From positions 30,563 to 94,562 of the forward strand of contig NZ_JAPEHW010000006.1 of assembly GCF_028875915.1 (NCBI RefSeq): a DNA stretch of 64,000 nt. The letters run 5' to 3'. The stretch comes from Pseudoalteromonas sp. G4. GTDB taxonomy: Bacteria > Pseudomonadota > Gammaproteobacteria > Enterobacterales > Alteromonadaceae. This document shows positions 11,551 through 26,836 of this stretch, in pieces. Position 1 is the first letter of the stretch. Each line of letters opens with the position of its first letter. The position numbers were made by a program, and so were the translations under genes. The notes beneath the pieces are model-generated. The model saw only the letters and a program-made list of their open reading frames with translations, was not told the origin of the DNA and made no database searches.

Positions 11551-12705
11551 TTGTTGCTAAATATTGAAATTAAAGGTGTTCAGTTCTCGAATAAAGGGGC
11601 TGAGTTAATGTTAGAAGCAATATTGCAGCAGCTGGACCTACATTTAGATGAGTATCAGCTTACACTTTCTCCTGGCCGTAATTTACCCTATGTAAAAAGA
11701 GCCAAACTAGGGGCATGGCAAAAGCTTAGCTTTCGCCGTGGCAATTTAGATTTGACAGGTATCTTTGCTAAGTTACCAAAGAAAATGCGTAACTTTCTTA
11801 AGCGTTATGGCATCGTAACTGAGGCTGATGTGGATGTTATTCTTAATGCCAGTGGTTTTGCCTATGGCGACCAGTGGCCTTTGGCTGATCTGCGAAATAC
11901 AGCTAAAGAAATTAAACGATTTAAAGCATTAGGTAAGCCATACATTTTATTGCCTCAAGCATTAGGACCGTTTCAGCGTGAAGAATTAAAAGAATTTGCA
12001 GAGTCGTTAATCAACGATACCGCGCTTACTTTTGCAAGAGACGATACGTCGTTTGCTGAATGTGAAAAATTGAATAAAAGCAATAAATTGTTTCAAAGTC
12101 CTGACTTTACAGCATTGCTTGAAGTGGAACGATTTAACACAACAGAGCAGCAAACCGTTTGTTTAATTCCTAATAATAAAATGGTGTCTAAATTTAATCA
12201 TGCGAATGCAGAGCAGCAAAAGAAAGCGTATTATGATTTTTGGATAGACACTGCAAGGTTTTTTATCGATAAAGGCTTTTTTGTAAAACTATTAAACCAT
12301 GAAGGCAAAGAAGATAGAGATATTTGCAACGCAATTTTTGACGCTATTTGCAGTGAGCAAATAGCTTTGATAGATGGTTTAAGCTCAACCGAAATTAAAG
12401 CCCTTATTGGCAGCTGTGATGCCGTTGTAAGCAGCCGCTTTCATGGTTGCGTAAGTGCACTTTGTCAGGGAGTTCCTTGCTTAGCCACAAGTTGGAGTCA
12501 TAAATACGAAATGCTCTACGGAGAATATGGTTTATCTGAAAATGTGATTGATTTTCAACTTGAAGCCGATGAATTAAAAAATAAATTGAACCAGTTTTTG
12601 AATGACTTGACTAATCAGGCAAGTGTCAGTCTAGAACACGCTGAAAAAGTTAAATTACAGAACAAAAAGATGTGGCAACAAGTTGTTGCAATCATCAAAT
12701 CGTGA
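11551..12705 (+). CDS. Polysaccharide pyruvyl transferase family protein
   Basis: A 384-residue protein of the PS_pyruv_trans family, members of which transfer pyruvate from PEP to sugars. Visible features are the N-terminal IKGVQFSNKGAELMLEAIL, the central DVDVILNASGFAYGDQWP and PYILLPQALGPFQ, and the C-terminal family signature CDAVVSSRFHGCVSALCQGVPCLATSWSHKYEML. TTG 11551 (or TTG 11554) follows AAGGAG closely, and the gene begins one base after the nitroreductase-like stop. It probably decorates the exported polysaccharide with a pyruvyl ketal, although some family members have other roles. Confidence 0.8.
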   Translation: MLLNIEIKGVQFSNKGAELMLEAILQQLDLHLDEYQLTLSPGRNLPYVKRAKLGAWQKLSFRRGNLDLTGIFAKLPKKMRNFLKRYGIVTEADVDVILNASGFAYGDQWPLADLRNTAKEIKRFKALGKPYILLPQALGPFQREELKEFAESLINDTALTFARDDTSFAECEKLNKSNKLFQSPDFTALLEVERFNTTEQQTVCLIPNNKMVSKFNHANAEQQKKAYYDFWIDTARFFIDKGFFVKLLNHEGKEDRDICNAIFDAICSEQIALIDGLSSTEIKALIGSCDAVVSSRFHGCVSALCQGVPCLATSWSHKYEMLYGEYGLSENVIDFQLEADELKNKLNQFLNDLTNQASVSLEHAEKVKLQNKKMWQQVVAIIKS

Positions 12706-12767
12706 CTTATCGACATAGGCAATCGCCCTTGATAAACTGCCAAGTCGAATTTATGGGAGTTGTAAAA

Positions 12768-13163
12768 ATGAAAAAGATGCGCGGCTTTAGCTTGATGGAG
12801 CTATTAATCGTACTAATTATTTTAGGTCTCTTAGGTTCTTTAGTAGCGCCTAAACTTTTTTCTAAAGTAAGTTCATCAAAAAAGAAAACAGCAGTTGCTC
12901 AAATGCAAATGTTTGAAACGGCTATTGATACATATCGCTTAGATGTGGGTACAGTACCAACTAAATTAGAAGAATTACGTACTGGTGATGCTCCAGGATG
13001 GGATGGTCCATATCTACCAAAAGCAATCCCTATGGATCCATGGGGTAAGCCTTATGTTTATACTGTTCCTGGTCAAAATGGTAATCCTTATGGATTAATG
13101 ACCTATGGTCTAGATGGACAGCCTGGCGGAGAAGGCGAAAGTGAGGATGTTGTTCATCAATGA
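12768..13163 (+). CDS. gspG: Type II secretion major pseudopilin GspG-like
   Basis: Major pseudopilin of a type II secretion-like machine. The prepilin motif RG|FSLMELLIVLIILGLL is followed by a hydrophobic helix. The C-terminal domain has the GspG pattern (TVPTKLEELRTG, GWDGPYLPKAIPMDPWGKPY, and YGLDGQPGGEGESEDVV with calcium-binding acidic residues). The frame is open further upstream, but GGGAG at 12755-12759 supports ATG 12768, giving 131 residues with the short leader MKKMRG. It is the first gene of an 11-gene operon, whereas classical gsp operons begin with gspC-gspD. Confidence 0.9.
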   Translation: MKKMRGFSLMELLIVLIILGLLGSLVAPKLFSKVSSSKKKTAVAQMQMFETAIDTYRLDVGTVPTKLEELRTGDAPGWDGPYLPKAIPMDPWGKPYVYTVPGQNGNPYGLMTYGLDGQPGGEGESEDVVHQ

Positions 13164-14821
13164 TGGATATTAAAAAGCTACTTACTGAGCAGTTTGCAGT
13201 AAGCCAATCCGATTTAGAAAAAGCGACTACCTATCAAGAAAGGTACAGTGGTCGTTTAGAGAATATATTGGTTAATATGGGGTGTTTAACCGAGGATGAC
13301 TTGGCACCTTTATATCATCAACTGCTTGGTTACTCGCTTTTTGATCCAGAGGATTACCCAAACTGGCAATTAAATGAACAGATAACTATTTCAGTATATG
13401 AGCAGTTAAAACAATATGATGCTTTGCTGGTAGAAGCTAGCGCAGATTGTTGGACACTTGCATGTAAAGATCCCTTAAGTATTGAGCTGTCACAATATTT
13501 GTTATCTCATAATGTTGAATTAAACGTTTTAGTTGCGACTGAATCTCAACTACAAGCTTTTTTCTTTGAAATTCAAAGTCAAACAGAAGCGAATGTTGAA
13601 ATAGAAGAATTAACAGGTGATGAAGAAGCACGTTTAAGGGAACTCGCATCTGAAGCGCCAACGGTTAACTTACTAAATTCACTTATCACTAAAGCGTTAG
13701 CACGTGGTGCATCCGATATGCACTTAGAACCCTATCAAGGTCGCTTTAGAGTGCGATATCGCATAGACGGTGTACTGCATGAAGTAGACTCACTTGCACC
13801 TAAAATGCAATTGCCAATTACAACACGTTTAAAAATACTATCTGGTATGGATATCGCCGAAAAGCGTCGTCCTCAAGATGGTAAAATTGAAATGCGAATT
13901 GCCAATCAAGAACTAGATATTCGTGTGTCGGCACTGCCTTTAAACGAGGGCGAAAGTATTGTTTTGCGTTTCTTGCGTAAAGACTCAATTCGCTATGATA
14001 TGTCGGTGCTCGGATTGTCAGGTGATACGCAAACGCTCATTGGTGAAGACCTTAAAAAAACCACCGGTGTAGTTTTACTAACAGGCCCAACAGGTTCAGG
14101 TAAAACAACTACGCTTTACACCTTCTTAAATGAGCTTAACAACCCAGATGTAAAAATTATTACACTTGAAGACCCTGTGGAATATCAGCTTGAAGGTATT
14201 AACCAAGTTCAAGTAAACAGTGAAATTGGTTTTGATTTTGCGGCAGGGTTGCGCTCAATTGTTCGTCAAGATCCTGATATCATCATGGTTGGTGAAATTC
14301 GTGATAAAGAGACCGCGCAAATTGCCCTTCAATCAGCGCTGACAGGTCACCTTGTATTCAGTACTGTGCACACTAATGATGCCGCAAGTGCTTATACTCG
14401 ATTACTTGATTTAGGCGTTGAAGAGTTTTTACTAAATGCGGCACTTGTATCTGTAGTCGCACAGCGACTCGCTAGACGCTTATGTCAGCACTGTGCAGCA
14501 CCAGACGAAAATGCCAACGAATTATTAGCAAAATACCCACTGCAACGAGTTGCTGAGAATGCAGGCATTCAACATTTAACTATCCAAAAAGCAGTAGGAT
14601 GTGAGCATTGCAATAATGCAGGTTATAAAGGGCGAATTGCAATAAACGAATATTTGCGCTGTGATGATGAAATAAAGGCGACGCCTAAAAACGACCAGTT
14701 TATTCCAAAAGCGCAAGCACATAACGCAAGTTTAAAACGTCGTAACCTTATGGAAGATGGCTTTTATAAAGTGATTACAGGTGTAACCACCATTGATGAA
14801 GTGCTAAGGGTTGCGGGCTAA
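13160..14821 (+). CDS. gspE: Type II secretion ATPase GspE-like
   Basis: Cytoplasmic hexameric ATPase that drives pseudopilus assembly. The 553-residue product has an N-terminal MshEN/T2SSE_N-type region, then the catalytic core with Walker A GPTGSGKTTTLY (about 309-320), Asp box ITLEDPVEYQ, Walker B PDIIMVGEIRD (about 371-381) and His box STVHTND. The zinc-binding pair CQHC...CEHC near residues 448 and 479 is typical of GspE. It overlaps gspG by ATGA. An ATG at 13163 is an equally possible start. Confidence 0.93.
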   Translation: MMDIKKLLTEQFAVSQSDLEKATTYQERYSGRLENILVNMGCLTEDDLAPLYHQLLGYSLFDPEDYPNWQLNEQITISVYEQLKQYDALLVEASADCWTLACKDPLSIELSQYLLSHNVELNVLVATESQLQAFFFEIQSQTEANVEIEELTGDEEARLRELASEAPTVNLLNSLITKALARGASDMHLEPYQGRFRVRYRIDGVLHEVDSLAPKMQLPITTRLKILSGMDIAEKRRPQDGKIEMRIANQELDIRVSALPLNEGESIVLRFLRKDSIRYDMSVLGLSGDTQTLIGEDLKKTTGVVLLTGPTGSGKTTTLYTFLNELNNPDVKIITLEDPVEYQLEGINQVQVNSEIGFDFAAGLRSIVRQDPDIIMVGEIRDKETAQIALQSALTGHLVFSTVHTNDAASAYTRLLDLGVEEFLLNAALVSVVAQRLARRLCQHCAAPDENANELLAKYPLQRVAENAGIQHLTIQKAVGCEHCNNAGYKGRIAINEYLRCDDEIKATPKNDQFIPKAQAHNASLKRRNLMEDGFYKVITGVTTIDEVLRVAG

Positions 14822-16020
14822 TGGAGTTTGAGTATAAGGCGATTGATAACTCTGGCGCGCGTCATCAAGGCACTATTGAAGCCAATGATAAACCGCAGGC
14901 TCAGCAAAAACTCGTCGCTGATGGGTTGCACCCAATAGAGCTTAAAGCGATTACGTCAGGTACAACGCTAGCTGATCTATTTGGTCAAAAAGTAACGCTT
15001 GATCAGCTAGAGTTTTTCACTAGCGAATTATCATTGCTACTTGAAAGCGGTGTGCGTGTTGATAAGGGTATTGATATTATTCGTCAATCGAATGCTCATC
15101 CTGCCCTTAGTCGCTTACTTAATCAAATTGCCAGCTCTATTAAAAAGGGAGAATCATTAAGTGATGCATTTGCAAAGCATGAAACCTTGTTTGGCCCTCT
15201 TTACATTAGTTTATTAAAAATTGGTGAAACATCGGGTAATTTACCTGAAGTACTTAATCGCCTTGCCGCAGATCTAAAATTCCAAAAAGATCTTCGCTCT
15301 CAAATAAGTACTGCGCTTACTTATCCATCAGTGATCTTTTTTGTGTGTATTATGGCGGTATATTTTGTTCTTACCTTCATTGTGCCAAAAATGGCGGGCA
15401 TTTTTACCGACCTAGAACAGGCACCTTGGTATACGCAAATGATCATTAACACCAGTAACTTTTTCATCGACTATCAAGTACTCATTGTTGGTGGTGTTAT
15501 TGGTGGTATTGGTTTACTGGCTTATGCCTTACAAAAGTCAGAAGTGAAAAATTGGTTTTATGTAACAGGCTCTAAGTTACCTTTGGTTGGTAATGTAATT
15601 ACAACTGCTGAACGTATTCGTTTTGCGCAAAGTATGTCGATGATGTTAGAGGCAGGTTTACAATTAGATACAACCCTTGAGCTAACATCAGAAACCTTAA
15701 AACACCCAGACTTTAAACGTGATGCTAAACAGGCACTTAAACAGTTAAAATCAGGCAAGCAACTCAGTTTTGTATTAAGTAAAACGCGTATTTTCCCTGA
15801 TTTCTTTTTATCGATTATTAAAGTAGGTGAAGAAACAGGGCGTTTACCCCGTGTTTTTAGTGAAGTTGCAAATCGTTCACGCACTGATTTAGAACAAGTT
15901 ATTAAAAAACTAACCACTATGTTAGAGCCGTTAATGCTCTTGTTTATGGGTGGCTTTGTTGGTGGAATTGTAATCACAATGTTGATGAGTATGGTATCAA
16001 TCAATGATGTTCCACTCTAA
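14821..16020 (+). CDS. gspF: Type II secretion inner-membrane platform protein GspF-like
   Basis: Polytopic inner-membrane platform protein. The 399-residue product has two tandem T2SSF domains (about 70-190 and 272-394), each with the pattern FxxxLSLLLESGVxxDKG / FAQSMSMMLEAGLQLDTT and IKKGESLSDAF / LKSGKQLSFVL, three membrane segments (about 172-194, 220-240, 372-394), and a C-terminal MLSMVSINDVPL. Its start overlaps the final base of gspE, so coupling is expected. Confidence 0.93.
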   Translation: MEFEYKAIDNSGARHQGTIEANDKPQAQQKLVADGLHPIELKAITSGTTLADLFGQKVTLDQLEFFTSELSLLLESGVRVDKGIDIIRQSNAHPALSRLLNQIASSIKKGESLSDAFAKHETLFGPLYISLLKIGETSGNLPEVLNRLAADLKFQKDLRSQISTALTYPSVIFFVCIMAVYFVLTFIVPKMAGIFTDLEQAPWYTQMIINTSNFFIDYQVLIVGGVIGGIGLLAYALQKSEVKNWFYVTGSKLPLVGNVITTAERIRFAQSMSMMLEAGLQLDTTLELTSETLKHPDFKRDAKQALKQLKSGKQLSFVLSKTRIFPDFFLSIIKVGEETGRLPRVFSEVANRSRTDLEQVIKKLTTMLEPLMLLFMGGFVGGIVITMLMSMVSINDVPL

Positions 16021-16414
16021 AAAACAACTTGGCTTTTCGCTCATTGAATTAATGGTAGTGCTTGCGATTATGGCTGTTTCAATGAGCCTAACTGGTGGTT
16101 TGATTACTAATGTTGTATCAAAACAAGAGCGATTCGTTGAAATAGAAAAAGTAAAACAACTTGTTTTATCTCTTAAATACAAGGCGTTTTACACTGGTAG
16201 TGATTTTAAAGTCGATTTTATTGAAAATAGAATTTTAATAACAGGAATATATGAAAAAAAAGAATTTGTATTTAATCAGCTGATTTTTTCTTCTCAAAAG
16301 TTAGAAATATATTCTAACGGTACTTCAAATAACAAATACTTTGAAACCCTCATAGGTGAAGAAGTGATTACAATCAACTTACCAAGCCCATATAAAGAAA
16401 ATGAAAAAGTCTAG
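16004..16414 (+). CDS. gspH: Minor pseudopilin GspH-like
   Basis: A 136-residue protein with a type IV prepilin leader MMFHSKKQLG|FSLIELMVVLAIMAVSMSLTGG, including Glu5 of the mature helix. The remainder resembles a GspH globular domain (IEKVKQLVLSLKYKAFYTGSDFKVDF, NLPSPYKENEKV). It overlaps the gspF end by 17 bp. Assignment to GspH rests on size and order (after F, before I). ATG 16007 is an alternative start. Confidence 0.8.
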   Translation: MMFHSKKQLGFSLIELMVVLAIMAVSMSLTGGLITNVVSKQERFVEIEKVKQLVLSLKYKAFYTGSDFKVDFIENRILITGIYEKKEFVFNQLIFSSQKLEIYSNGTSNNKYFETLIGEEVITINLPSPYKENEKV

Positions 16415-16811
16415 CTCTTCAGGTTTTACGTTAATCGAGGTGCTAATTGCTGCTATCATTTTATTTTCGTCAATAGCAGTTGTGGCTGATATATTCTCAG
16501 CTGCTTCTTTAAGCTCAAGAAAAGCAACAAATGTCACAAGTTTATATCAAATGGCACCTATAGCTATAGAGCAAATCAAGGAAAAACTCAGAACAAGCAG
16601 TACACAGGATGGCATTCAACTTAATGGAAAAGTTCAACTAGCCGAAGGTGTTTTCTATTGGAGTGCAACTAGAATTAATAGCTTCAGACCTCCAATGCAG
16701 TTTGATGATACCAGTCCATACCCTATTAAATTTCATACTTATAATGTAAATGTATTAGCTGAACAGGGTAGCTTACGTCAGAGTTTTAACTTTGAGGTCT
16801 TTGTGTGGTGA
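16401..16811 (+). CDS. gspI: Minor pseudopilin GspI-like
   Basis: A 136-residue pseudopilin with leader MKKSSSSG|FTLIEVLIAAIILFSSIAVVADIFS. GspI is a minor pseudopilin of the pseudopilus tip complex with GspJ and GspK. The gene overlaps gspH by 14 bp and gspJ by 7 bp, in the standard H-I-J-K order. The C-terminal part (YNVNVLAEQGSLRQSFNFEVFVW) is divergent, so the call leans on the leader and position. Confidence 0.82.
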   Translation: MKKSSSSGFTLIEVLIAAIILFSSIAVVADIFSAASLSSRKATNVTSLYQMAPIAIEQIKEKLRTSSTQDGIQLNGKVQLAEGVFYWSATRINSFRPPMQFDDTSPYPIKFHTYNVNVLAEQGSLRQSFNFEVFVW

Positions 16812-17497
16812 AGAACGTCAAAGGATTTACTTTAGTTGAGCTGCTTATAGCGTCAAGTATTCTTGTAGCGGTTATGCTTTCAGGGTACAGTGCTTATAGT
16901 TTGTATTCATCTTCTTGGCAGAAAAGATCTCAACACTACTGGCAACAAGCTCAAGCAGGACTAACTCTCCAATCAGTGTATCGTTCAATTAATGCCATCT
17001 CAGACTATATCGTTATTAACAATAATGATAAGCCATCAGCTTATTTTTATTTGACATCATCCAGTGTTCGCTTTATTACAACTTCGCCGATTTTTTCTAA
17101 TGCAATTGCTGTTGCTGAGTTAGAAATTATCAAAGAAGATAAGTTTTATTTGGTCTATAAAGAAAAGTCACTTGCTAAAGAGCCTATTTACTCAGCAGCA
17201 AGTATAATAAACTGGCAACATGAAATTGTTGTTATGGAGCTTGAAGAACAGAGTTATTTTAACGCGTATGGCTGGCCTTCTTGGCAGGCGGTAAGTGAAT
17301 ATGAAAGTTCTAATTTAGAAATGAAACAACTCCAGCAGGATATGCAACCTAAAGTGTTTCAAGTGTATGACTTTAACGAAAATGAAATCTTACCTTTGAA
17401 AATAAACATGTTTGTTGGAAGTCAGCATCTATTAGAAATAAGTTTAAAAAGTGATTCACATAAAAAACTATTTTTGTATGCTGAGTCGGGGGCTTAA
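16805..17497 (+). CDS. gspJ: Minor pseudopilin GspJ-like
   Basis: A 230-residue pseudopilin with leader KNVKG|FTLVELLIASSILVAVMLSGYSAYS. Its length agrees with GspJ, the larger minor pseudopilin of the tip complex. GTG 16805 and GTG 16808 are both possible; the second forms a GTGA overlap with the gspI stop. The globular part is divergent and rich in aromatic and acidic residues. Confidence 0.82.
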   Translation: MVKNVKGFTLVELLIASSILVAVMLSGYSAYSLYSSSWQKRSQHYWQQAQAGLTLQSVYRSINAISDYIVINNNDKPSAYFYLTSSSVRFITTSPIFSNAIAVAELEIIKEDKFYLVYKEKSLAKEPIYSAASIINWQHEIVVMELEEQSYFNAYGWPSWQAVSEYESSNLEMKQLQQDMQPKVFQVYDFNENEILPLKINMFVGSQHLLEISLKSDSHKKLFLYAESGA

Positions 17498-17500
17498 ATT

Positions 17501-18394
17501 TTGAAAAAACAAAATGGAATAGCTCTTATTCAAGTACTTATTATCTCTATTGTACTGACACTATTAGCTATGTTTATTTCTAAAAATACGCAAAGGCAAG
17601 TTGGTATTACTGAGCAGGTTAAGCATTCCTTTCAGCTAAGAGTACGACTTGAAAATGCAGAAAGCTTAATTCTTTCTGAACTTCTTTCAAAAAATCTCTA
17701 CAGAAATAACTTAGACTCAGGTCTTGCAAGCAAATGGAATTTTCATAATGCACCTTTTGTTTTGAGTAATGGTGTAAAAGTGCAGTTACAAGATTTAAAA
17801 GGTTTAATAAATCTTAATTATGTAAACGATACTCTCATTAATAGCTTTTTAACACAGTACGAATTATCCGATTCACAAAAACGTGAGTTTGTTGATTCCT
17901 TAAAAGACTGGATTGATCGTGATGATTTAAATAGATTAAATGGAGCCGAAAAGCCTTATTATGAGAGTCGAGGATTGATTGTACCAAGGAATGGTCATTT
18001 ACAATATTTAGATGAAATCTATTTGGTTAAGGGCGGCGATATAATTCGACCAGAAGATCTAAGAAATTTTTTTACTGTAATATTAACCGAAGGGCTAAAC
18101 CCTTTTAATGCACCAGACGAATTATTAAAAGTTATGATTTTAAATCAAGATGCAGTAGAAAATGTAATTAATAAAAGAAGAGCAGGTAACTTAACAGAAT
18201 TAGACTTTTATCAGCTTACAGGGATTGAACAAGATATTTATGTAAACTTTGCAACAGGTCGTAAAATAAGGGTAATATTAGAGGTCTCAGAAGGAAGTAC
18301 AAAACTTAAAAAAGAGTTTATTGCTAATATCAATCCTTTGAGTAATACATCTCCTTTAGTGCTCAGTAATCATATTTGGAACAAATCGTGGTAA
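17501..18394 (+). CDS. gspK: Pseudopilus tip protein GspK-like
   Basis: A 297-residue tip pseudopilin. The leader MKKQNG|IALIQVLIISIVLTLLAMFIS lacks Glu5, as is typical of GspK. The body has GspK features: VQLQDLKGLINLNYVNDTL, DSLKDWIDRDDLNRLNGAEKPYYESRG, and an NAPDELLKVMILNQDAVENVINKR helix-hairpin-like segment. The start is TTG 17501, supported by GGGGG about 9 bp upstream and by the leader. The gene is separated from gspJ by 3 bp. Confidence 0.85.
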   Translation: MKKQNGIALIQVLIISIVLTLLAMFISKNTQRQVGITEQVKHSFQLRVRLENAESLILSELLSKNLYRNNLDSGLASKWNFHNAPFVLSNGVKVQLQDLKGLINLNYVNDTLINSFLTQYELSDSQKREFVDSLKDWIDRDDLNRLNGAEKPYYESRGLIVPRNGHLQYLDEIYLVKGGDIIRPEDLRNFFTVILTEGLNPFNAPDELLKVMILNQDAVENVINKRRAGNLTELDFYQLTGIEQDIYVNFATGRKIRVILEVSEGSTKLKKEFIANINPLSNTSPLVLSNHIWNKSW

Positions 18395-19491
18395 TTAATT
18401 TAAGCTTATTGGAACGTCTCTCTTTTTTACAAAAATTTATAAAAAATAAAGTAGGGTATTTTAATCAGCAATTACAAACACTAGATAGATTTAGTAGCAC
18501 TGCTGAGAATTTTCAACCTAGATTGATAATAGTTTCAAAGAAGCATTATAAAGAAGTTCGTAAATCATATTCAGCTGTTAGCAAAAAAGATCTAGATGCA
18601 ATACTTGCTCTTAATTCCATAGCAAGTAATAACTTGTCTATTTCAAAAGTATCAGTGAACTCTCAAATAGATGGCTTCGATGTTAAAACGATTACGTATG
18701 ATGTTAATCTAATTGATAAAATACCTTCATCAGCCATGCTTTTACCTGAGACGGAATTACTAAGTTTTTATTGCTCAGATAAACAGTGTTTATCAATAGA
18801 TACTCCTGGTGGAGAACTCTATTTTGCTAAACCATTAAAATATGGAGTAAGTGATTATAAAGGCGGGTTATTAAACTCTGTTGATACCTTTATCAAAAGT
18901 GTTGGTCTTTCTGATAAAGCTCAGGCTGTGTATATTTCTCGTTTAGAGTATTCTAATTTGCTTCAAAAGCTTCTCAAGCAAATTTCCATTGTTGACTTAG
19001 TTCGATCTTCAAGGGTATTTTTTACCAAATCTCTAAATCTAAGCAAAATACATGTTTTATATTTGGCGCCATTAACTTTCGCAACACTATTTCTGGTAGC
19101 CGTTTATGGAATGAATTATTTACATATCGAAACGATAAACTCTGAATCTAAAACGTTAAACTCCGAAGCCACAAATGTGCTTCAAAAACGTCAAAACTTT
19201 ATTTCATTAAATGAGAAGTTAGAAGTTCTTAATGATGAATTTAACAAAATAAATCGAAAACATACTGATTGGGATATTATATCAATAGCGATCGCTTCAG
19301 GAATGGAAATTCAGAACCTAGTTGGTAATGATGAGTTTATTGAAATGAGAGGCGTAGCCCCCAAAGCTTCAGAAGTGTTGGAAAAACTGAATGAATCAGA
19401 AATGGTAAATAGTGCTATTTTCACCACTCCTATTCGAAAGTCTCGAAGAAAAGATGCTTTTACCTTAAAAGTAGTGAGAGTAATTAAATGA
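18376..19491 (+). CDS. gspL: Type II secretion assembly protein GspL-like
   Basis: A 371-residue bitopic protein. About 225 cytoplasmic residues precede one membrane segment (about 230-252, HVLYLAPLTFATLFLVAVYGM), followed by a coiled-coil-like stretch and a small ferredoxin-like periplasmic domain (about 310-371). This is the GspL/PilN plan, and GspL couples GspE to the platform. Sequence divergence is high, so the call rests on topology and position between K and M. The start is uncertain: TTG 18376 or GTG 18388, both inside gspK. Confidence 0.68.
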   Translation: MEQIVVINLSLLERLSFLQKFIKNKVGYFNQQLQTLDRFSSTAENFQPRLIIVSKKHYKEVRKSYSAVSKKDLDAILALNSIASNNLSISKVSVNSQIDGFDVKTITYDVNLIDKIPSSAMLLPETELLSFYCSDKQCLSIDTPGGELYFAKPLKYGVSDYKGGLLNSVDTFIKSVGLSDKAQAVYISRLEYSNLLQKLLKQISIVDLVRSSRVFFTKSLNLSKIHVLYLAPLTFATLFLVAVYGMNYLHIETINSESKTLNSEATNVLQKRQNFISLNEKLEVLNDEFNKINRKHTDWDIISIAIASGMEIQNLVGNDEFIEMRGVAPKASEVLEKLNESEMVNSAIFTTPIRKSRRKDAFTLKVVRVIK

Positions 19492-20036
19492 AGAAAGACT
19501 TGTTAAAATATAAGCATTATTTTATTGCTCTTGGTGCTTTACTCGTTTATTTGTACATAACTGAACCTCTTTTTATTTCAATATTAGAACAACAAAACAG
19601 AATAGATTTAAATGAAAAAAAGCTATCTAAAATCAACGGAATGATTGAAAGTGAAGCTCAGATTATAAGTTTGTTAAATGATAATGAACTAAAACTGAAA
19701 AATGCAGAATCGTTTTTTTATAAATCAGAAAGTGAATCTGAGTTTAAGTTAGAGCTACAAAAGCAGATTGAAGAAATTTTACAAGAGGCTAACTGTGAAA
19801 TAGAAACGCTTGACTGGAATGGTAAAGTTGATCTGGAAAATTTATATAGGTGGAATTTGAACTTAAGATATCAAGGTAATCCAGCGTGTATTATTCAGGC
19901 TAGTAGAAAAATAGAATCTCTACTCCCAATTGTTAATATAAATAACTACAGATACACGGCTAGAAGAATTAACGGAGCCGTTAGAACTAAGATCACAGCT
20001 ATCCTTGAGTTAACAATTCTTCAAGATAAGGCATAA
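19488..20036 (+). CDS. gspM: Type II secretion assembly protein GspM-like
   Basis: A 182-residue protein with a short cytoplasmic tail, one membrane segment (about 10-30, HYFIALGALLVYLYITEPLFI), a coiled coil (about 35-95, charged heptads) and a C-terminal ferredoxin-like domain. This is the GspM/PilO architecture, the partner of GspL. It overlaps the gspL stop by ATGA, which supports the pairing. Sequence identity alone would not establish it. Confidence 0.68.
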   Translation: MKKDLLKYKHYFIALGALLVYLYITEPLFISILEQQNRIDLNEKKLSKINGMIESEAQIISLLNDNELKLKNAESFFYKSESESEFKLELQKQIEEILQEANCEIETLDWNGKVDLENLYRWNLNLRYQGNPACIIQASRKIESLLPIVNINNYRYTARRINGAVRTKITAILELTILQDKA

Positions 20037-20037
20037 C

Positions 20038-20523
20038 ATGATAAATAAATTAGCAATATTATTTTCAGTTATTGCAATTGTATTTACTTGGTTTCAGTTA
20101 CAAAGCGATAACCAAGAACAATTAAACTCAGAAACTAGTTTGGCTAGCAAAGCCTTGGATGTTCCATTAAGTCTTAAAGAAGAGTTGTTAAATGTAGAGT
20201 CTGAATGGTTAAAAATACAAAAAGATCATGATCTTTCCCTTACGCAGGCGACATCTAATACGCAAAAAAAACAACCAAAAAGTGAGTTCGCTTTTGAGTT
20301 AAATGGAAAAGGTTTTTCACTTGTTGGTATTTTTCAACAACCAGAAAAATCCTTTGCCATCTTTAAAACTGAAAACTCCGAGTTTAAAAAAGTATATATA
20401 GGTGAACAAATTGTTGATGGTTTTCACTTAAAGGAAATGGACAATAGGTACATCATTTTTATTAATGATGGGAAAGAAATAGAATTTGAATTATTCAAAA
20501 GTACGTACAATGATAAAAGCTAA
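20038..20523 (+). CDS. gspC: Type II secretion GspC-like inner-membrane protein
   Basis: A 161-residue bitopic protein with an N-terminal anchor (LAILFSVIAIVFTWFQL), a polar linker and a small C-terminal domain (about 90-157; FELNGKGFSLVGIFQQPEKSFAIFKTEN, VYIGEQIVDGFHLKEM) resembling the HR domain of GspC or the PilP fold. These domains contact the secretin N0 domain. It has no PDZ domain, so it is shorter than classical GspC. It lies just before the secretin, which supports the role. Confidence 0.7.
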   Translation: MINKLAILFSVIAIVFTWFQLQSDNQEQLNSETSLASKALDVPLSLKEELLNVESEWLKIQKDHDLSLTQATSNTQKKQPKSEFAFELNGKGFSLVGIFQQPEKSFAIFKTENSEFKKVYIGEQIVDGFHLKEMDNRYIIFINDGKEIEFELFKSTYNDKS

Positions 20524-22579
20524 TACAAAAAGTGTTATTTTCTGTGGATTGATTTTGAGCCTTAACGGTTGCGCTTTAATCAATCCTGGGAATTCGAATA
20601 AAACTGAACCTCTAGAGGTGTCGCCTTCGTTTATCAAGAACGATAACAAAGACGAGTACATCCAAGACCAGATAGAAGGTAAATCGGAGTCAGAGGTTGA
20701 ATCATCGTTTGAAGTTTTAGCTAAATCAAACCAAGAAACAGCTAAATTAGGTTTAGAATTAGCTAAAGAGTTTGACCAAAAAGCAAAGTATAAGTTAGCT
20801 ATCAATGCAATGCCATTAAATGAGTTTGTTCACTATGCTTTTGGAGAGCTTTTAGGTGTATCTTATGTTGTGGATTCTGCAGTCAAGAGCAATAAAACTT
20901 CTGTTACTCTTGAGATTAAAAATGATGTATCTGCACAAGAAGTATTTAAGCTTAGCAGTCAAGTTCTAGCAAATAATGGCGTTAGTATTCAGCGTAGTGA
21001 AGGGGTTTATTTTATTTCTCCTTTGCCCAAAAAAGGGATGAAATCTGACAAAGCATTTGGATTTGGCAGAACAGAGCAAAGTGTGCCTTTATCATCAGGT
21101 GCTATTAGCCATACAGTTCCTTTGAAGTACAAAGCTACCAATAATATAAGAGCGGCAGTATCATCGCTTGTCGAAGCCAAAGTATATTTAAATGAAGAGG
21201 ATGGCCTACTAACAATAGATGGTAATAGAGAGCAAGTATTAAGGGCGCTTTCTTTAGTTGAGATTTTTGATAGTAAGTTGCTGTATAACAAAAGTGTTGC
21301 AATTGTAGGTTTTAAATACATTGACTCAAACACATTTATTAATAAATCTACTGAATTATTAAGGCAGGATGGTATTAGTACAAATTATGATAATTTAAAA
21401 AGTGCTAATGTTAACTTTATTCCAATAGAGCATCTTGGTCAGGTTGTTGTATTTGCAAATAGTGAAGAAATACTAGAAAGGGTTCGCTACTGGAGTATTG
21501 TTATTGATAAACCTGCAACAGGAAGTGAGCAAAGTTTTTATATTTATCACCCTCAGTTTGCTAGAGCCTCTGATTTAGGAGCTTCGCTGACACCTTTAAT
21601 AAATGCTAAGCAAAGAGTTAATTCAGTACAAACTCAAAGCACTGGTGGGACATCAGCTCCTTTAGCTTCGCAAAACCAAAATACTACACCAAGTACTTCA
21701 AGCCAATCATCACTTATCACAGGTGATAAAATGAATATGGTAGTAGATGAACGAGCCAATGCATTAATATTTCACTCAACGGGTAAGCATTATCAAGAGC
21801 TGTTACCCATAATCAGAAAACTTGATGTAATGCCAAAGCAAGTGATGATGGAAGTGGTTATTGCAGAGGTTAACTTGACAGGCTCTTTTTCTAAAGGGGT
21901 TGAATATGCAATACGAAATGGCTCCGCAGGCAATAAAACAAATACCTTTAGTTTCGATGGCGAAGGTGGCTTTAGTTATTCGATTGTTGGCTTAAATGGT
22001 AATTTTAATATCAACCTTAATCAAACTGACGGCATGATTAATGTATTATCACGTCCAACATTAGTTGTTAGGGATGGTGTTTCAGCAACTATAAATGTTG
22101 GTAATGATATTCCAACAGTTGGTGCAACAACATCAGACCCGATTAGCGGTGATAGAGAAACCACAACAATTCAATATAGAAAAACCGGTGTTGACTTATC
22201 TGTAACCCCAACTATTAATGCACAAGGAACAGTGATAATGACGATTTCACAAAATATATCTAACGTATCTACATCAGGTCCAAGTTTGAGTGGTTCGCCA
22301 TCTGTTTTTGAACGAAGAATAAGTACTGAAGTGGTTGCTGGCGATGGTGAAACTGTTATGCTAGGAGGCTTAATTAGCGATAATTATAATACGTCATCAA
22401 ACTCAATCCCTTTACTGGGGGATATTCCAGTTTTAGGGCATATGTTTAGAACAGATGGTTCAGAGCAAGATAAAACTGAGTTGGTTGTACTTGTAACGCC
22501 AAAAATCGTAAAAAGTTCTGAAGATTGGAAAATGATCACTGAAAGTTTTAAAAAAGGCTTACAAAACCTAAAGTTTTAA
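20510..22579 (+). CDS. gspD: Type II secretion secretin GspD-like lipoprotein
   Basis: Outer-membrane secretin pore. The start is taken at ATG 20510 because it gives a lipoprotein signal with lipobox LSLNGC (Cys21). An upstream TTG at 20486 would bury it. Domains in order are N0 (about 85-155, INAMPLNEFVHYAFGELLGVSY), N1-N3 modules (170-430) with a Ser/Thr/Gln-rich linker near 365-395, and the secretin core (about 430-680) with VMMEVVIAEVNLTGSFSKGVEY, ISTEVVAGDGETVMLGGLISDN and IPLLGDIPVLGHMFRTDG. It ends VVLVTPKIVKS... and is the last gene of the operon. Confidence 0.93.
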   Translation: MIKANTKSVIFCGLILSLNGCALINPGNSNKTEPLEVSPSFIKNDNKDEYIQDQIEGKSESEVESSFEVLAKSNQETAKLGLELAKEFDQKAKYKLAINAMPLNEFVHYAFGELLGVSYVVDSAVKSNKTSVTLEIKNDVSAQEVFKLSSQVLANNGVSIQRSEGVYFISPLPKKGMKSDKAFGFGRTEQSVPLSSGAISHTVPLKYKATNNIRAAVSSLVEAKVYLNEEDGLLTIDGNREQVLRALSLVEIFDSKLLYNKSVAIVGFKYIDSNTFINKSTELLRQDGISTNYDNLKSANVNFIPIEHLGQVVVFANSEEILERVRYWSIVIDKPATGSEQSFYIYHPQFARASDLGASLTPLINAKQRVNSVQTQSTGGTSAPLASQNQNTTPSTSSQSSLITGDKMNMVVDERANALIFHSTGKHYQELLPIIRKLDVMPKQVMMEVVIAEVNLTGSFSKGVEYAIRNGSAGNKTNTFSFDGEGGFSYSIVGLNGNFNINLNQTDGMINVLSRPTLVVRDGVSATINVGNDIPTVGATTSDPISGDRETTTIQYRKTGVDLSVTPTINAQGTVIMTISQNISNVSTSGPSLSGSPSVFERRISTEVVAGDGETVMLGGLISDNYNTSSNSIPLLGDIPVLGHMFRTDGSEQDKTELVVLVTPKIVKSSEDWKMITESFKKGLQNLKF

Positions 22580-22733
22580 CTTGATAAATTGCTAATAAAT
22601 CGTTAATTTATTCGTGGGTTTTTACCCAATAAATTATTTGTATAAGTATAATAAGTTGCAAATGTGTGTTTAAGAAAGCCCAATGTAAATAAAAATAAAT
22701 ATTGGTTGCTTCTAAAGCAAAAAACAAAGAGTT
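22580..22733. other. Spacer between the secretin and the Slr4-like gene
   Basis: No gene is seen. It has AT-rich inverted motifs (AATAAAT/ATTTATT near 22594-22612 and TGGGT/ACCCA near 22615-22627) that could form a weak 3' hairpin for the secretion operon, but no strong T-run terminator. Confidence 0.4.
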
Positions 22734-22856
22734 AACACTTGACATGTTTAAGTGTTACACTTAAATTTGCAATGATTCGACACTACTCCTGTCGAAATAA
22801 TAAAATCTTGGTGCATTGAAACTCCAATCAGTGCATCAGTTTCATGAAACTAGGAG
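22734..22856 (+). promoter_or_regulatory. Putative promoter, operator and structured leader of the Slr4-like gene
   Basis: A consensus -35 TTGACA (22739-22744) is 17 bp from TAAATT (22762-22767, 4/6 to TATAAT). A perfect inverted repeat AACACTT / AAGTGTT (22734-22740 and 22750-22756) overlaps the -35, with a further ACACTT at 22757-22762, which could be an operator. The transcript would carry hairpin TTCGAC/GTCGAA (22776-22796) and palindrome GTTTCATGAAAC (22839-22850) just before AGGAG (22852-22856). Structured leaders of this kind are known to stabilise abundant mRNAs; that role is an inference here. Confidence 0.6.
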
Positions 22857-22866
22857 AATGGAAAAA

Positions 22867-24270
22867 ATGAAACTATTCAATAAAGCGCTAGTAGCTTCTG
22901 CTGTTCTTGGTGCGTTTTCTGCTCACGCAGTAGACGTTTCAAGTGCTAAAATTAAACTATCTGAAGAAGGTGTTGCTGCGGGTAACTCTGGTGCAGTTGG
23001 TAATGCAACAAATAACCTTGTTCTTGATTTTGTAGTAGGCGCGCTTACTCCAGCATCTTCTTTCATTGAACTTGAGTTCAGTGAAGGTGTTGACTGGTCA
23101 AACGTAACTATTCAAGAGTCATCAATCGACAATGATGTAACTAACGGTGAAGGTAATGTTAACCTAGCTGACGGTAACATGACATTTGATTACGGTACAG
23201 GTTCTTTCACCTTTGATAACGTTGCACTAGATACTTCAGAAAAGAAAGATGTTCTTTCTTTCAAAGTAAACCTAGGTAACCCATTAGTTGCTAACTCAGC
23301 ATTCCGTCTAACTGTTGCTGATTTAACTGCTGGTACAAATGACATCGAGATTACTGGTTCAGAAGAAGTTTGTTATACTTCTTTCCAAAATAATTCAGGT
23401 GAGAAAGGTGACGTAATCGAAACTGGTTGTGTTGCAATCTCTGAATTAGAGTCTCAGTACTCTTTCACTGTTTCTACAGAGTGGGATGGTATTATCGAGC
23501 GTGTTGAGCAAATCACTTTCGTTAAAGACGGTGACACTGATAATGCAAACAACGATACATTAACTTACAAAATTTCTTCTAACGAATCTCTACCAGCAGC
23601 TATTGAAGATGCTGATGCTGAAATTAAGTTTGCAGGTAACTTCGAAGATTTAGATGGTACTAACTTCACTGTTAACCACAATGCAGGTGGTGCAACACCA
23701 ACTGCTACTGTAAACGGTGATGAAGATGCTGTTAACTTTACTTTAGCTGATGGCGATTTCGCAGTAGACGGTACTGTTGAAAGTGGTACTGTTACATTTA
23801 GCTCTTCTAACGCAACAGTAATCCCTGTAACTGGTGAAATTGTTGCAACTGCAACTTTCACAGATGGCACAGATAACTTTAAAGTTATCACTGATGATGC
23901 TGGTCAGTGGGCACTAGATGCAGTAGTTATCAATGTTCCTTACTTCCCAGTTAACTTCTCAGGTGTTGTATCACAAGTACACATTGCTAACGAAGCAAAC
24001 ACAACTGCTGATGTTATCGTTTCTGCAATCGATGACCAAGGTGTTGAGTACGGTCCATTAGACCTAGGTTCAGACCTTGCTGCTAACACTGTAAACCGTG
24101 TTAAAGCTGCTGACCTTGCTGCTTTATTCTCAATTACTGATAGCCGTAAACTAAGCGTAACATTCAACATCGATGCTGATGCTGATGACGTTGCTGCTAA
24201 CGCTACAGTACAAAGTTCAACTGGTCGTTCTGAAGTTTCTAACTCTCAGTACAAAGTTGACGGTAAGTAA
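22867..24270 (+). CDS. Secreted acidic surface protein, probable Slr4-family S-layer protein
   Basis: A 467-residue product with signal peptide MKLFNKALVASAVLGAFSAHA and mature start near VDVSSAKIKL. The mature protein is acidic, rich in Asp, Thr, Val, Ala and Asn, with many short beta-strand-like repeats (for example GNATNNLVLDFVVGALTPASSFIELEF), and only two cysteines (about residues 176 and 188). Codon choice is strongly biased (GCT, GTT, AAC) unlike its neighbours, suggesting very high expression. ATG 22867 is chosen over 22858 from the signal peptide and spacing to AGGAG. Features fit Slr4, the S-layer family known from Pseudoalteromonas tunicata, and the adjacent type II-like operon could export it. 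Alternative: another secreted adhesin or matrix protein. Confidence 0.65.
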   Translation: MKLFNKALVASAVLGAFSAHAVDVSSAKIKLSEEGVAAGNSGAVGNATNNLVLDFVVGALTPASSFIELEFSEGVDWSNVTIQESSIDNDVTNGEGNVNLADGNMTFDYGTGSFTFDNVALDTSEKKDVLSFKVNLGNPLVANSAFRLTVADLTAGTNDIEITGSEEVCYTSFQNNSGEKGDVIETGCVAISELESQYSFTVSTEWDGIIERVEQITFVKDGDTDNANNDTLTYKISSNESLPAAIEDADAEIKFAGNFEDLDGTNFTVNHNAGGATPTATVNGDEDAVNFTLADGDFAVDGTVESGTVTFSSSNATVIPVTGEIVATATFTDGTDNFKVITDDAGQWALDAVVINVPYFPVNFSGVVSQVHIANEANTTADVIVSAIDDQGVEYGPLDLGSDLAANTVNRVKAADLAALFSITDSRKLSVTFNIDADADDVAANATVQSSTGRSEVSNSQYKVDGK

Positions 24271-24285
24271 TAGTTATATTACATT

Positions 24286-24315
24286 AAAGCCCGGTTTATA
24301 CCGGGCTTTTTTTTT
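24286..24315 (+). terminator. Strong rho-independent terminator after the Slr4-like gene
   Basis: Nine-base stem AAAGCCCGG / CCGGGCTTT with loop TTTATA, then a long T run. It fits a highly transcribed single gene and partly insulates the downstream cluster. Confidence 0.93.
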
Positions 24316-24325
24316 GCAGGAAATA

Positions 24326-24880
24326 ATGAAATATAAATTTTTAATACTTACCCCTATTCTATTTTCAAGTTTTTATACTTCAGCTAAAGATCTGTGTGGT
24401 GTTGGTGTTGAGTTTAAAAATTCCCCCAGAGTAGCGCGCAATACACACTCCTTGTCAGAATCGATTAGTTTATTTACAAAACAGTATAAGGCTAGAGCTG
24501 TTATTAAGGGTGAGACGGTTGTTTATAGCGTTAATTGTCAAACGCTAAATGGTGCTGATTACACTGGAAATGCAGAGGAAGTTGCAGGCTATGTACAAAG
24601 CTCCCTCTCACAGTTGAAGCAAAAAGGATTTAAAGACTTTAGCGTAGAAAAGTTAGAAGCAACCAATTTATCTTACCAAGGTAAACTGCCATTTCACTTT
24701 TATAAAATTAAGGCGCTAAATCAAGATTTACAACCATTTGAGTATCTAAACTTATACTTGTTTGATAAACAATTAAATACGATCTACATAACCAGCGTGG
24801 CTGGATTACAAAGTACTTCAGATTTAAATTTAAAAGAGTTTGAATTCACCATTAATTCACTCAAAATACAAAATAATTAG
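24326..24880 (+). CDS. Hypothetical exported protein
   Basis: A 184-residue protein with signal peptide [20 protein letters not shown] and mature start near [10 protein letters not shown]. The mature part has two cysteines (CGVGV and NCQTLNG) that could form a disulfide and a mixed alpha/beta pattern. I recognise no domain. ATG 24326 is chosen from the signal peptide and the GCAGG just upstream; the open frame extends earlier, into the terminator and the Slr4-like gene. It lies 8 bp before rfbA, so it may be expressed with the sugar genes or by read-through from the surface-protein promoter. Confidence 0.75.
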
Positions 24881-24888
24881 GTTTTAAG

Positions 24889-25764
24889 ATGAAAGGGATT
24901 ATTTTAGCCGGGGGAACAGGTAGCCGGTTATATCCACTCACCGCAGTGCTCAGTAAACAATTAATGCCTGTTTATGATAAACCAATGATTTATTACCCGC
25001 TTGCTACCTTAATGCAGGCGGGAATTAAAGATATATTAATAATTTCAACTGAGCAGGATTTACCCTCATTCAAGAAGCTACTTAATGATGGCAGTCAGCT
25101 GGGTATAAAATTATCCTATCAAGTTCAACATGAACCTAAAGGGCTTGCTCATGCACTCATTATTGCAGAAAATTTCATAAAAAATGATAATTTTGCAATG
25201 ATTCTTGGTGACAATCTATTTTATGGACAAACTCTACCAACAAATTTACTAAAAGCAGCAAATAGAACATCGGGTTGTACTATTTTTGGTTATCATGTCG
25301 CGCACCCTGAAAATTATGGCGTTGTGGAATTTGACAGAGCAGGGATTGTTAAATCTATCGTGGAAAAACCACAACAGCCAAAATCGCATTTTGCTATACC
25401 AGGAATTTACTTTTTTGACTCGCAAGCTGTTGGTTTTGCCAAAAACGTAGTCTTGAGTGAGCGTGGCGAGCTAGAAATTGTAGATGTGCTCAAACAGTAT
25501 TTAACAAAGCAAGAGCTAAACGTTGAGATTATGGGGCGAGGTATTGCATGGTTAGATACAGGTACTCATGCTGATTTACTAGCCGCAAGCCAATTTATTG
25601 AAACTATTGATAATCGTCAAGGCTTAAAAATAAACTGCCCTGAAGAGCAAGCTTTTAGAAATGGTTGGATTGATGCAGCACAGCTAAAAGCAATAGCTGA
25701 ACCTTTAATGAAAAGTGGTTACGGCGCATATTTACTAAATATTTTACAAGAGACAGATGTCTAA
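24889..25764 (+). CDS. rfbA: Glucose-1-phosphate thymidylyltransferase
   Basis: Makes dTDP-glucose from glucose-1-phosphate and dTTP. The 291-residue product carries the nucleotidyltransferase signature [51 protein letters not shown] and [12 protein letters not shown], and follows E. coli RmlA throughout. It overlaps rfbB by 8 bp. The rfbC and rfbD genes for dTDP-rhamnose are missing, so the intermediate probably feeds an amino sugar (see the DegT gene). Confidence 0.96.
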
Positions 25765-26836
25765 ATTAATAATAAAAAACATTTTAGTAACAGGTGGAGC
25801 TGGTTTTATTGGCTCTAACTTTGTTGATTATTGGCTTAAGAACAATCAAGGTAATGTGATAGTTTTAGACCTGCTAACCTACGCAGGTAATTTAAGCAGC
25901 CTTTCAAAGTTCAAATCAAACGAGCGTTTTTCTTTTTATCAAGGTGATATTGCCGATAAAGAATTAGTTGGTGAACTGCTCGCAAAGCATGAGATTAACT
26001 GTATTGTAAACTTTGCTGCCGAATCACATGTAGATCGTTCGATTTCTGGAGCTACACCTTTTATTTTTACAAATATTGTTGGTACATTTGAATTATTAGA
26101 ATGCGCAAAACAGTTTTGGTTAACGCACCCAAATTTTAAAGAAAATCATCGTTTTCATCACATTTCAACCGATGAGGTCTATGGCAGTTTAACAAGTGAT
26201 GATGCACCATTTAAAGAGTCAAACCAATATCAACCTAATTCGCCTTATTCTGCTTCTAAAGCCTCATCAGACCATCTTGTAAGGGCTTACCACCACACAT
26301 ATGGTTTAAATGTTACTACGTCTAATTGTTCAAATAACTATGGTCCACTGCATTTTCCAGAAAAACTAATACCGTTAGCGATACTTAATATTTTGCATGA
26401 TAAGCCAATTCCAGTTTATGGAAATGGCCAGCAAATAAGAGATTGGTTATTTGTTGATGATCATTGTTTAGGCATTGATTTGATTTTGCAAAAAGGCATC
26501 GTTGGGGAAACGTATAATATCGGTGGTAACAATGAGTTGAAGAATATCGACTTAATACACCGATTATGTGAATTGATGAACTATAAGTTTGCCAATAATG
26601 CATCTTTAGAAGCACAGTATCCAAATGCTTTAAGTGCAATTAATGGGCAAAGTGAGAAACTAATAACATTTGTTCAAGATAGACCGGGCCATGATGTACG
26701 CTATGCCATCGATGCATCAAAAGCAATGGATGAACTTGGTTATTGCCCAAATTATAACTTTTCAAATGCTTTGGAAACTACAGTTAATTGGTATTTAAAT
26801 AATAATAATTGGTGGCTACCACTTTACCATCAATAA
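25757..26836 (+). CDS. rfbB: dTDP-glucose 4,6-dehydratase
   Basis: Short-chain dehydrogenase/reductase that converts dTDP-glucose to dTDP-4-keto-6-deoxyglucose. The 359-residue product has NAD motif [14 protein letters not shown], the DLLTYAGNL and ESHVDRSI stretches, the STDEVYGSL substrate motif, and catalytic [20 protein letters not shown] (Tyr-x3-Lys). It overlaps the rfbA end. It would supply substrate for the VioA-like DegT aminotransferase on the opposite strand. Confidence 0.95.

Follow-up and report, generated by a model that had tools for sequence, protein, structure and literature searches.

A type II secretion-type operon linked to slr4 in Pseudoalteromonas sp. G4, a predicted dedicated exporter of an S-layer protein

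Introduction

S-layer proteins encoded beside a type II secretion system (T2SS) of their own are a known kind, and the idea that such a system exports its neighbor is not new. We analyzed a 64,000-nucleotide stretch of the Pseudoalteromonas sp. G4 genome (assembly GCF_028875915.1, contig NZ_JAPEHW010000006.1, positions 30,563 to 94,562), hereafter the window, in which an operon of eleven T2SS-type genes is followed directly by slr4, encoding an S-layer protein. Our results confirm and sharpen a published link. In Pseudoalteromonas tunicata D2, Ali et al. (2020; PMC7821379) described a T2SS operon immediately upstream of slr4, proposed dedicated export, and reported a square p4 lattice for Slr4; the pairing and the proposal are repeated in PMC11094555. 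The window is like P. tunicata in having a Slr4 family protein directly downstream of the T2SS operon. The fold is predicted differently in each case: as an RsaA-like beta-helix in PMC7821379, and as a tandem row of beta-sandwich domains in our AlphaFold2 (AF2) model of the window protein. The C-terminal domain, mRNA leader, and ATPase clade presented below come from our analysis and are not described in the passages of PMC7821379 available to us.

Two further S-layer loci compare closely, as far as the cited papers were available to us. The sps-vapA locus of Aeromonas hydrophila AH-1 (E-F-G-H-I-J-K-L-M-Orf2-D-VapA; PMC4413209) also has 11 T2SS-type genes with the secretin last, a short protein in the gspC slot (Orf2, 166 aa), and then the S-layer gene (VapA, 469 aa). 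It lies in an O-antigen cluster beside rml genes, and the window operon has polysaccharide surroundings with rml-like genes, named without a family search; gspG is third in Aeromonas (E-F-G) but first in the window (G-E-F). The gsp-npdA locus of Paracidovorax citrulli resembles the window in pairing an S-layer gene with upstream gsp genes (twelve) in a genome that has a second gsp cluster; it differs in being betaproteobacterial, with NpdA as its S-layer protein (PMC10765051).

An enzyme exporter, Xps of Xanthomonas, has much the same layout in the parts of PMC11981180 that describe it: 11 genes (E, F, G-M, C, D) with the same H-I-J-K-L-M-C-D end, a GspC with an HR region and no PDZ domain, and a prepilin peptidase outside the cluster; unlike in the window, gspG follows gspF. 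The initial annotation of the window had called the gene order unusual and had taken the short, PDZ-less GspC as support for a specialized machine. The order is that of Xps and Sps (E-F-G-H-I-J-K-L-M-C-D) with gspG shifted to first place and so lends no support to specialization. We also reject the PDZ-less GspC as such a sign, since the domain is absent from Xps and Xcp systems as well (PMC11981180).

Linkage of slr4 and the T2SS operon across genomes

We consider it probable that the window T2SS is a dedicated exporter of Slr4, likely recognizing its conserved C-terminal domain (CTD). The observations behind this prediction are the genes, membership of the cargo in the Slr4 family, conserved gene order, co-occurrence and linkage of cargo and machine, an ATPase clade, a CTD shared among cargoes, and a conserved leader.

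The eleven genes (12768-22579) lie on a single strand in the order G-E-F-H-I-J-K-L-M-C-D, and neighbors overlap or are 1 to 3 bp apart. Open reading frames (ORFs), strand, spacing, and family matches agree with the initial description of a tightly packed operon ending at a secretin, and the next gene, noted at first only for Slr4-like traits, matches the Pfam Slr4 family well above its cutoff (Table 1). GspG passes its NCBIfam equivalog cutoff; for GspE, GspF, and GspD the best NCBIfam model is the respective T2SS equivalog, though below cutoff, while their Pfam scores lie well above cutoffs. The best solved-structure matches of the window secretin are GspD, and its lipobox cysteine is invariant in 22 aligned rows. 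GspL, GspM, and GspC are identified mainly by position and size, because the matches of GspM and GspC are weak and below cutoff and GspL lacks a meaningful match; GspC is 116 to 224 aa long (median, 165) in 27 loci. Which of gspH, gspI, and gspJ is which is putatively assigned from gene order, and the start codons of gspG and gspD are our choice.

Linkage across related genomes had been set beforehand as a check on the exporter proposal. In a set of 119 relatives (72 of the genus, G4 included), the Slr4 family PF19526 occurs in 20 genomes, and all 20 have a GspD of at least 36% identity directly upstream. Window GspD matches 35 of the 119 at 1e-40, all 20 PF19526 genomes among them. Gene maps show the same operon at the 20 PF19526 loci and at 9 further loci of the genus without PF19526; automatic reading gave E-F-H-I-J-K-L-M-C-D behind G in 27 of these 29, window included. 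At the two exceptions, the automatic reading took an antisense ORF in place of gspC (L042) or gspF is split (L031). In the latter, from genome G014, gspF occupies two ORFs, although slr4 and the rest of the operon have open frames.

The nine loci without PF19526 carry other acidic signal-peptide proteins: seven a type-B cargo of ~600 aa ahead of gspG, and two a type-C cargo (735 and 663 aa) after gspD; Slr4 is type A. A system is thus present in at least 28 of the 72 genus genomes; each of these has a single GspD match, and its locus holds a single cargo type.

At the order level (394 genomes), we searched with a CTD profile from alignment A1 (29 loci; cutoff E 1e-3) and found the CTD in 23 genomes, 3 of which (G000, G049, and G076) had contributed to the profile. 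A GspD profile separated 20 genomes at ≥638 bits from the next at 443 bits. The CTD was present in all 20 genomes with a close GspD versus 3 of the 374 others (G161, G254, and G301; GspD 396 to 443 bits), an association with Fisher p of ~1e-30 when kinship is ignored. CTD gene and secretin lie no more than 9,515 bases apart in all 23 genomes and <2.1 kb apart in 18, on opposite strands in G146, G221, G161, and G254. In a class-level set of 369 genomes, the CTD occurs in 3, including G4; the other two matches are weak. GspD matches at 1e-100 occur in 25 of the 369, all except that of G4 at ≤456 bits. Co-occurrence and linkage in both the relatives and the order set thus favor the proposed T2SS-like exporter devoted to one abundant surface protein.

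What else might the operon do? T2SS substrates are often encoded elsewhere in the genome, and the operon could be a second general T2SS, with Slr4 one of many exported proteins and adjacent through joint acquisition. In keeping with this, an extra signal-peptide gene (24326-24880) adjoins slr4, and similar genes are found at 5 of the 19 other slr4 loci. We nevertheless judge a general T2SS unlikely: of the 23 order genomes that have the CTD, 22 gave a single count (G444 has two copies, 3 kb apart), always near such a system, and the domain was found in none of the 350 genomes without a GspD match at 1e-100, although these counts leave room for substrates lacking a CTD.

Still less credible is exit of Slr4 through another T2SS of the same genome, with the linked operon having some different job. 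The assembly (4.40 Mb, 179 contigs) has four secretin matches; the three outside the window, named from gene sizes and order, belong to a PilMNOPQ-like locus (L025), an MSHA-like cluster (L027), and a T2SS in canonical order (L026; D-E-F-G-H after a 309-aa ORF). A canonical route is therefore at hand, but no CTD gene among the 394 genomes lacks a linked GspD of the window's or a related kind. The presence of L026 also favors a dedicated role for the window system, which general secretion would not need. That the operon builds a type IV pilus-like fiber we can practically dismiss: pilins and secretins are homologous across these systems and GspE matches PilB strongly (505 bits versus 520 as GspE), but the T2SSG domain of GspG exceeds its cutoff, T2SS models outscore pilus models for GspF and GspD, and the operon contains no further gene such as a retraction ATPase.

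Several points weigh against dedicated, CTD-directed export of Slr4. Co-inheritance is compatible with further substrates, and docking through the CTD is our inference; the domain could instead be used for anchoring or for contacts within the lattice. The GspE tree described below has four G-first rows with no CTD in view: L133, over ~1.9 kb after gspD, and L137, L150, and L180, whose contigs stop at gspD or shortly past it. The assignments of L, M, and C are without confirmation from family models, and some CTD comparisons are weak or fail, as detailed below.

Were Slr4 exported by the window T2SS, general T2SS biology suggests the following course. Slr4 would cross the inner membrane by Sec and fold in the periplasm; the folded protein would use its CTD to dock with GspC/GspD and with the tip of the pseudopilus, whose GspE-driven growth would push the cargo out through GspD. 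The pseudopilus subunits would be cut by a single prepilin peptidase shared across the cell: as first noted, the window has none, and the one PF01478 gene of the assembly lies on another contig. Outside, Slr4 likely forms a lattice, perhaps held by a surface polysaccharide, the genes for which seem to flank the operon. The leader elements described below would likely raise or protect slr4 mRNA, giving an excess of cargo over machine from one locus.

GspE residues 7 to 49 nearly match the NCBIfam MshE-type cyclic di-GMP motif (33.7 of 38 bits); export by the window T2SS might respond to this nucleotide.

ATPase phylogeny and gene order

We built a GspE tree of 80 rows by a quick method: the window, 17 of the 28 relatives' system loci, 7 further loci, 2 other systems of the G4 genome, and 53 named loci. 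The named loci had been fetched with GspD (best 80 of 574, then mapped) and were included only with a GspE ORF of >450 aa. All 36 G-first rows with a CTD gene fall in one 39-row clade (SH-like approximate likelihood ratio test support, 100). The canonical GspE and the MshE of G4 form long branches outside it, their exact place unsure. Besides the 36, the clade holds L126, which has a CTD but does not start with G; L133 (Desulfobacteraceae); and L137, whose contig breaks off after gspD but still includes the leader and the next start codon. Two G-first Thermodesulfobacteriota loci, L150 and L180, are sister to the clade (41 rows; support, 98). As judged from this tree, G-first order marks the clade.

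None of the 17 E-F-G rows of the tree has a CTD match. Outside the tree, L228 (G301) has E-F-G order and a CTD gene at 31.7 bits, and L223 to L227, from five genomes, are E-F-G systems whose gspD lies apart from gspE-K and which have one or two acidic cargoes with CTD-like tails. Of seven proteins of the L223-L228 type taken singly, only two reach the CTD profile (0.0013 to 0.0017); the rest need the pooled group. G161 and G254 had, however, also given weak matches in the order search. The L223-L227 systems are possibly a second S-layer-like branch. Because E-F-G systems outside the clade carry a CTD or CTD-like tails, the domain seems older and more widespread than the G-first clade.

Type-B Pseudoalteromonas GspE rows stand apart from those of type-A Pseudoalteromonas and group instead with Rheinheimera baltica and with Colwellia sp. 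E2M01, whose cargo is type B (L135 and L235). This pattern would be expected from joint movement of machine and cargo.

A C-terminal domain common to divergent cargoes

We compared the last 150 to 185 residues of the cargoes by hhalign. The CTDs of types A and B matched at 96.4%, B and C at 92.5%, and A and C at 57.9%, versus 0.2 to 1.2% for the parts ahead of the CTD. Beyond the clade, the A1 pooled profile matched the E-group (95.1%), L228 (90.3%), L086 (70.4%), the F-group (65.0%), and L234 (61.3%), and the F-group also matched L228 (67.7%) and L086 (74.2%). Reversed controls gave 0.1 to 0.2%; in a search of 712 sequences that included 33 reversed cargoes, the best reversed match had an E value of 0.25 (type-B and type-C profiles). 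The weak pairs include, besides A-C, A-B itself with deeper alignments (70.8%, E 3.8e-5, covering only Slr4 residues 352 to 453), and other pairs failed: B with the E-group (6.7%), the E-group with the F-group (0.2%) and with L228, L234, and L086 (0.1 to 1.1%), and the F-group with L234 (0.4%). AF2 models of Slr4 (predicted local distance difference test score, 87.8) and a type-B cargo (85.2) place the same elements in the CTD in the same order: strands, one or two helices, and three strands. A 13-bit CTD match at L190 was taken as noise. Pseudidiomarina halophila (L124) has four CTD genes after gspD (12279-19374), with one small ORF among them.

The N-terminal values could suggest that types A, B, and C are unrelated proteins swapped onto a common tail. 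We regard this as unproven, since A/B homology over the whole protein is likely. Five of the 120 listed type-B matches bear a precomputed Slr4 label; on scanning, four pass the Pfam cutoff of 25 bits and one scores 23.9. These matches span some 65 to 77% of the protein; the type-B query itself (P0121) gave no match. In addition, the N-terminal parts of type A and the E-group match at 49.6%, and both AF2 models retrieve the same kinds of beta-sandwich structures. Fast divergence of one cargo family outside the CTD therefore appears to be the better reading. For Slr4 itself, a protein search found 176 homologues among 7,994 scored candidates, those listed including P. tunicata protein P0116.

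Substrate choice by T2SSs is a long-standing open question, and we know of no general substrate signal established for them; a narrow literature search found no published account of the CTD. The main rival reading of the domain, and a quite possible one, is that it anchors Slr4 to surface polysaccharide or makes lattice contacts, with the machine recognizing Slr4 elsewhere. An anchor fits the Wza-like gene found, within the stretch covered, in the window and at 22 of the 28 other loci, as well as the rmlA- and rmlB-like genes that follow the operon in the window. Recognition by the machine fits the sharing of the CTD among cargoes from several T2SS branches, although this is compatible with anchoring too. 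We propose only tentatively that the CTD is an export signal, and equally tentatively that it is a transplantable one for a whole T2SS branch: a folded beta domain read by the co-encoded machine, which would leave the remainder of the cargo free to diverge. A machine and its CTD would then be a matched, mutually orthogonal pair that moves between genera as one cassette.

As an export signal, the CTD would play for T2SSs the part that C-terminal sorting domains have in other secretion systems. One abundant cargo, a CTD recognizable in divergent proteins, and several cargo types per genus make substrate choice testable; the natural cargo types of Pseudoalteromonas (Slr4, type B, and type C) would allow recognition to be addressed by deleting or swapping domains. 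Should the CTD instead be the anchor, the Slr4 S-layer family would have in it a candidate anchoring module.

The slr4 leader

The slr4 mRNA leader contains a hairpin and, just before the Shine-Dalgarno sequence, the palindrome GTTTCATGAAAC. Its core, TTTCATGAAA, has 35 sites in 116 loci (2.20 Mb), 34 of them behind the hairpin and directly 5' of the start codon in the slr4 place, including two in second records of genomes already counted; because gspD was the basis for choosing the loci, this count is hardly informative about other parts of the genomes. Where the outer pair of the palindrome departs from G-C, both sides change together, to A-T or T-A. We folded the 47 bases before the core with matching arms (mean, −10.6 kcal/mol) and with arms exchanged between genomes (−5.2 kcal/mol): all 32 loci fell below their own exchanged mean, and 16 were in the best 5%. 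This control is poor in L033, L037, and L044, where 14 to 17 of 62 exchanged versions fold equally well.

The assembly contains a single instance of the palindrome with GGAGA after it. The pattern TTTCATGAAAN{1,4}GGAGA has one match each in 23 of the 119 relatives, 18 at slr4; the other five share another sequence and come from genomes without PF19526. The reversed pattern matches in 14 of 119 genomes, and we saw no sign of a regulon behind the slr4 leader in these counts. The two PF19526 genomes without the pattern are G033, which has another ribosome-binding site, and G065, which has no palindrome. The palindrome is missing in the type-C loci, and no site is listed in the type-B loci or in L127 and L134, both of which have CTD genes. 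An Rfam search of the leader gave no match. Hairpin and palindrome together are likely an element of mRNA stability or translation; the palindrome could also be a DNA operator.

A possible disulfide factor in type-B loci

All seven type-B loci of Pseudoalteromonas encode a lipoprotein of 235 to 240 aa between cargo and gspG. The lipoprotein is DsbA-like by Pfam in the two loci that we tested, L082 (3703-4407) and the Colwellia locus L135 (636-1460). Each of the seven type-B cargoes has four cysteines; the 20 type-A cargoes have 0 to 4, mostly 0 to 2. The lipoprotein is possibly a private, cargo-specific disulfide factor for type B.

Features and neighbors of the operon

Coordinates are collected in Table 1. 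Terminator-like and promoter-like sites in the region are no more frequent than in shuffled sequence (7 versus 7.4 on average, and 37 versus 41.7, respectively).

Table 1. Features of the slr4 locus in window coordinates
Feature	Position	Strand	Evidence
Wza/SLBB-like polysaccharide export gene	7825-10459		two overlapping ORFs, 196 + 702 aa
Pyruvyl-transferase-like gene	11551-12705		named from reading the sequence, no family search
gspG, major pseudopilin, operon front	12768-13163	+	PF08334 7.3e-28; TIGR01710 121 bits (cutoff 88.85)
gspE, secretion ATPase	13160-14821	+	PF00437 8e-127; TIGR02533 520 bits (under cutoff 630)
gspF, inner-membrane platform protein	14821-16020	+	PF00482 8e-56; TIGR02120 305 bits (under cutoff 424)
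gspH, minor pseudopilin (putative)	16004-16414	+	prepilin N-methylation motif PF07963; position
gspI, minor pseudopilin (putative)	16401-16811	+	PF07963; position
gspJ, minor pseudopilin (putative)	16805-17497	+	PF07963; position
gspK, minor pseudopilin	17501-18394	+	T2SSK domain PF21687 1.4e-8 (over cutoff); NF037980 under cutoff
gspL-position protein	18376-19491	+	no meaningful family match; position and size; 27 loci aligned
gspM-position protein	19488-20036	+	NF040576 GspM/XpsM 3.8e-5 (under cutoff)
gspC, short, HR region only, no PDZ match	20038-20523	+	PF11356 0.0049, NF041515 6e-5 (both under cutoff)
gspD, secretin with lipobox	20510-22579	+	PF00263 7e-46; TIGR02517 317 bits (under cutoff 351)
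Hairpin in slr4 mRNA leader	22808-22839	+	minimum free energy −14.8 kcal/mol, z −2.73; stems compensated between genomes
Palindrome before Shine-Dalgarno sequence	22839-22850	+	core TTTCATGAAA
slr4, S-layer protein, 467 aa, signal peptide (by eye)	22867-24270	+	PF19526 1.1e-18, 68 bits (cutoff 25)
CTD of slr4, common to cargoes of window and related systems	23884-24243	+	profile comparison; AF2 strand/helix order
Terminator-like hairpin after slr4	24286-24309	+	10 pairs, 6 GC, T tail; longest of 7 such sites in region
rmlA- and rmlB-like genes, after operon and slr4	24889-26836		named from reading the sequence, no family search

The signal-peptide protein encoded next to slr4 is 184 aa long and has no Pfam or NCBIfam match; its counterparts take the same place in L040 to L043 and L045 only. 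The Wza-like label, like those of the other polysaccharide genes, comes from reading the sequence without a family search. The Wza-like gene is a single ORF of ~880 to 920 aa in several relatives, and its split in the window may be an assembly error or a broken gene. Given how common Wza-like genes are near these loci, together with the rmlA- and rmlB-like genes of the window, the pairing of S-layer and polysaccharide may be conserved too.

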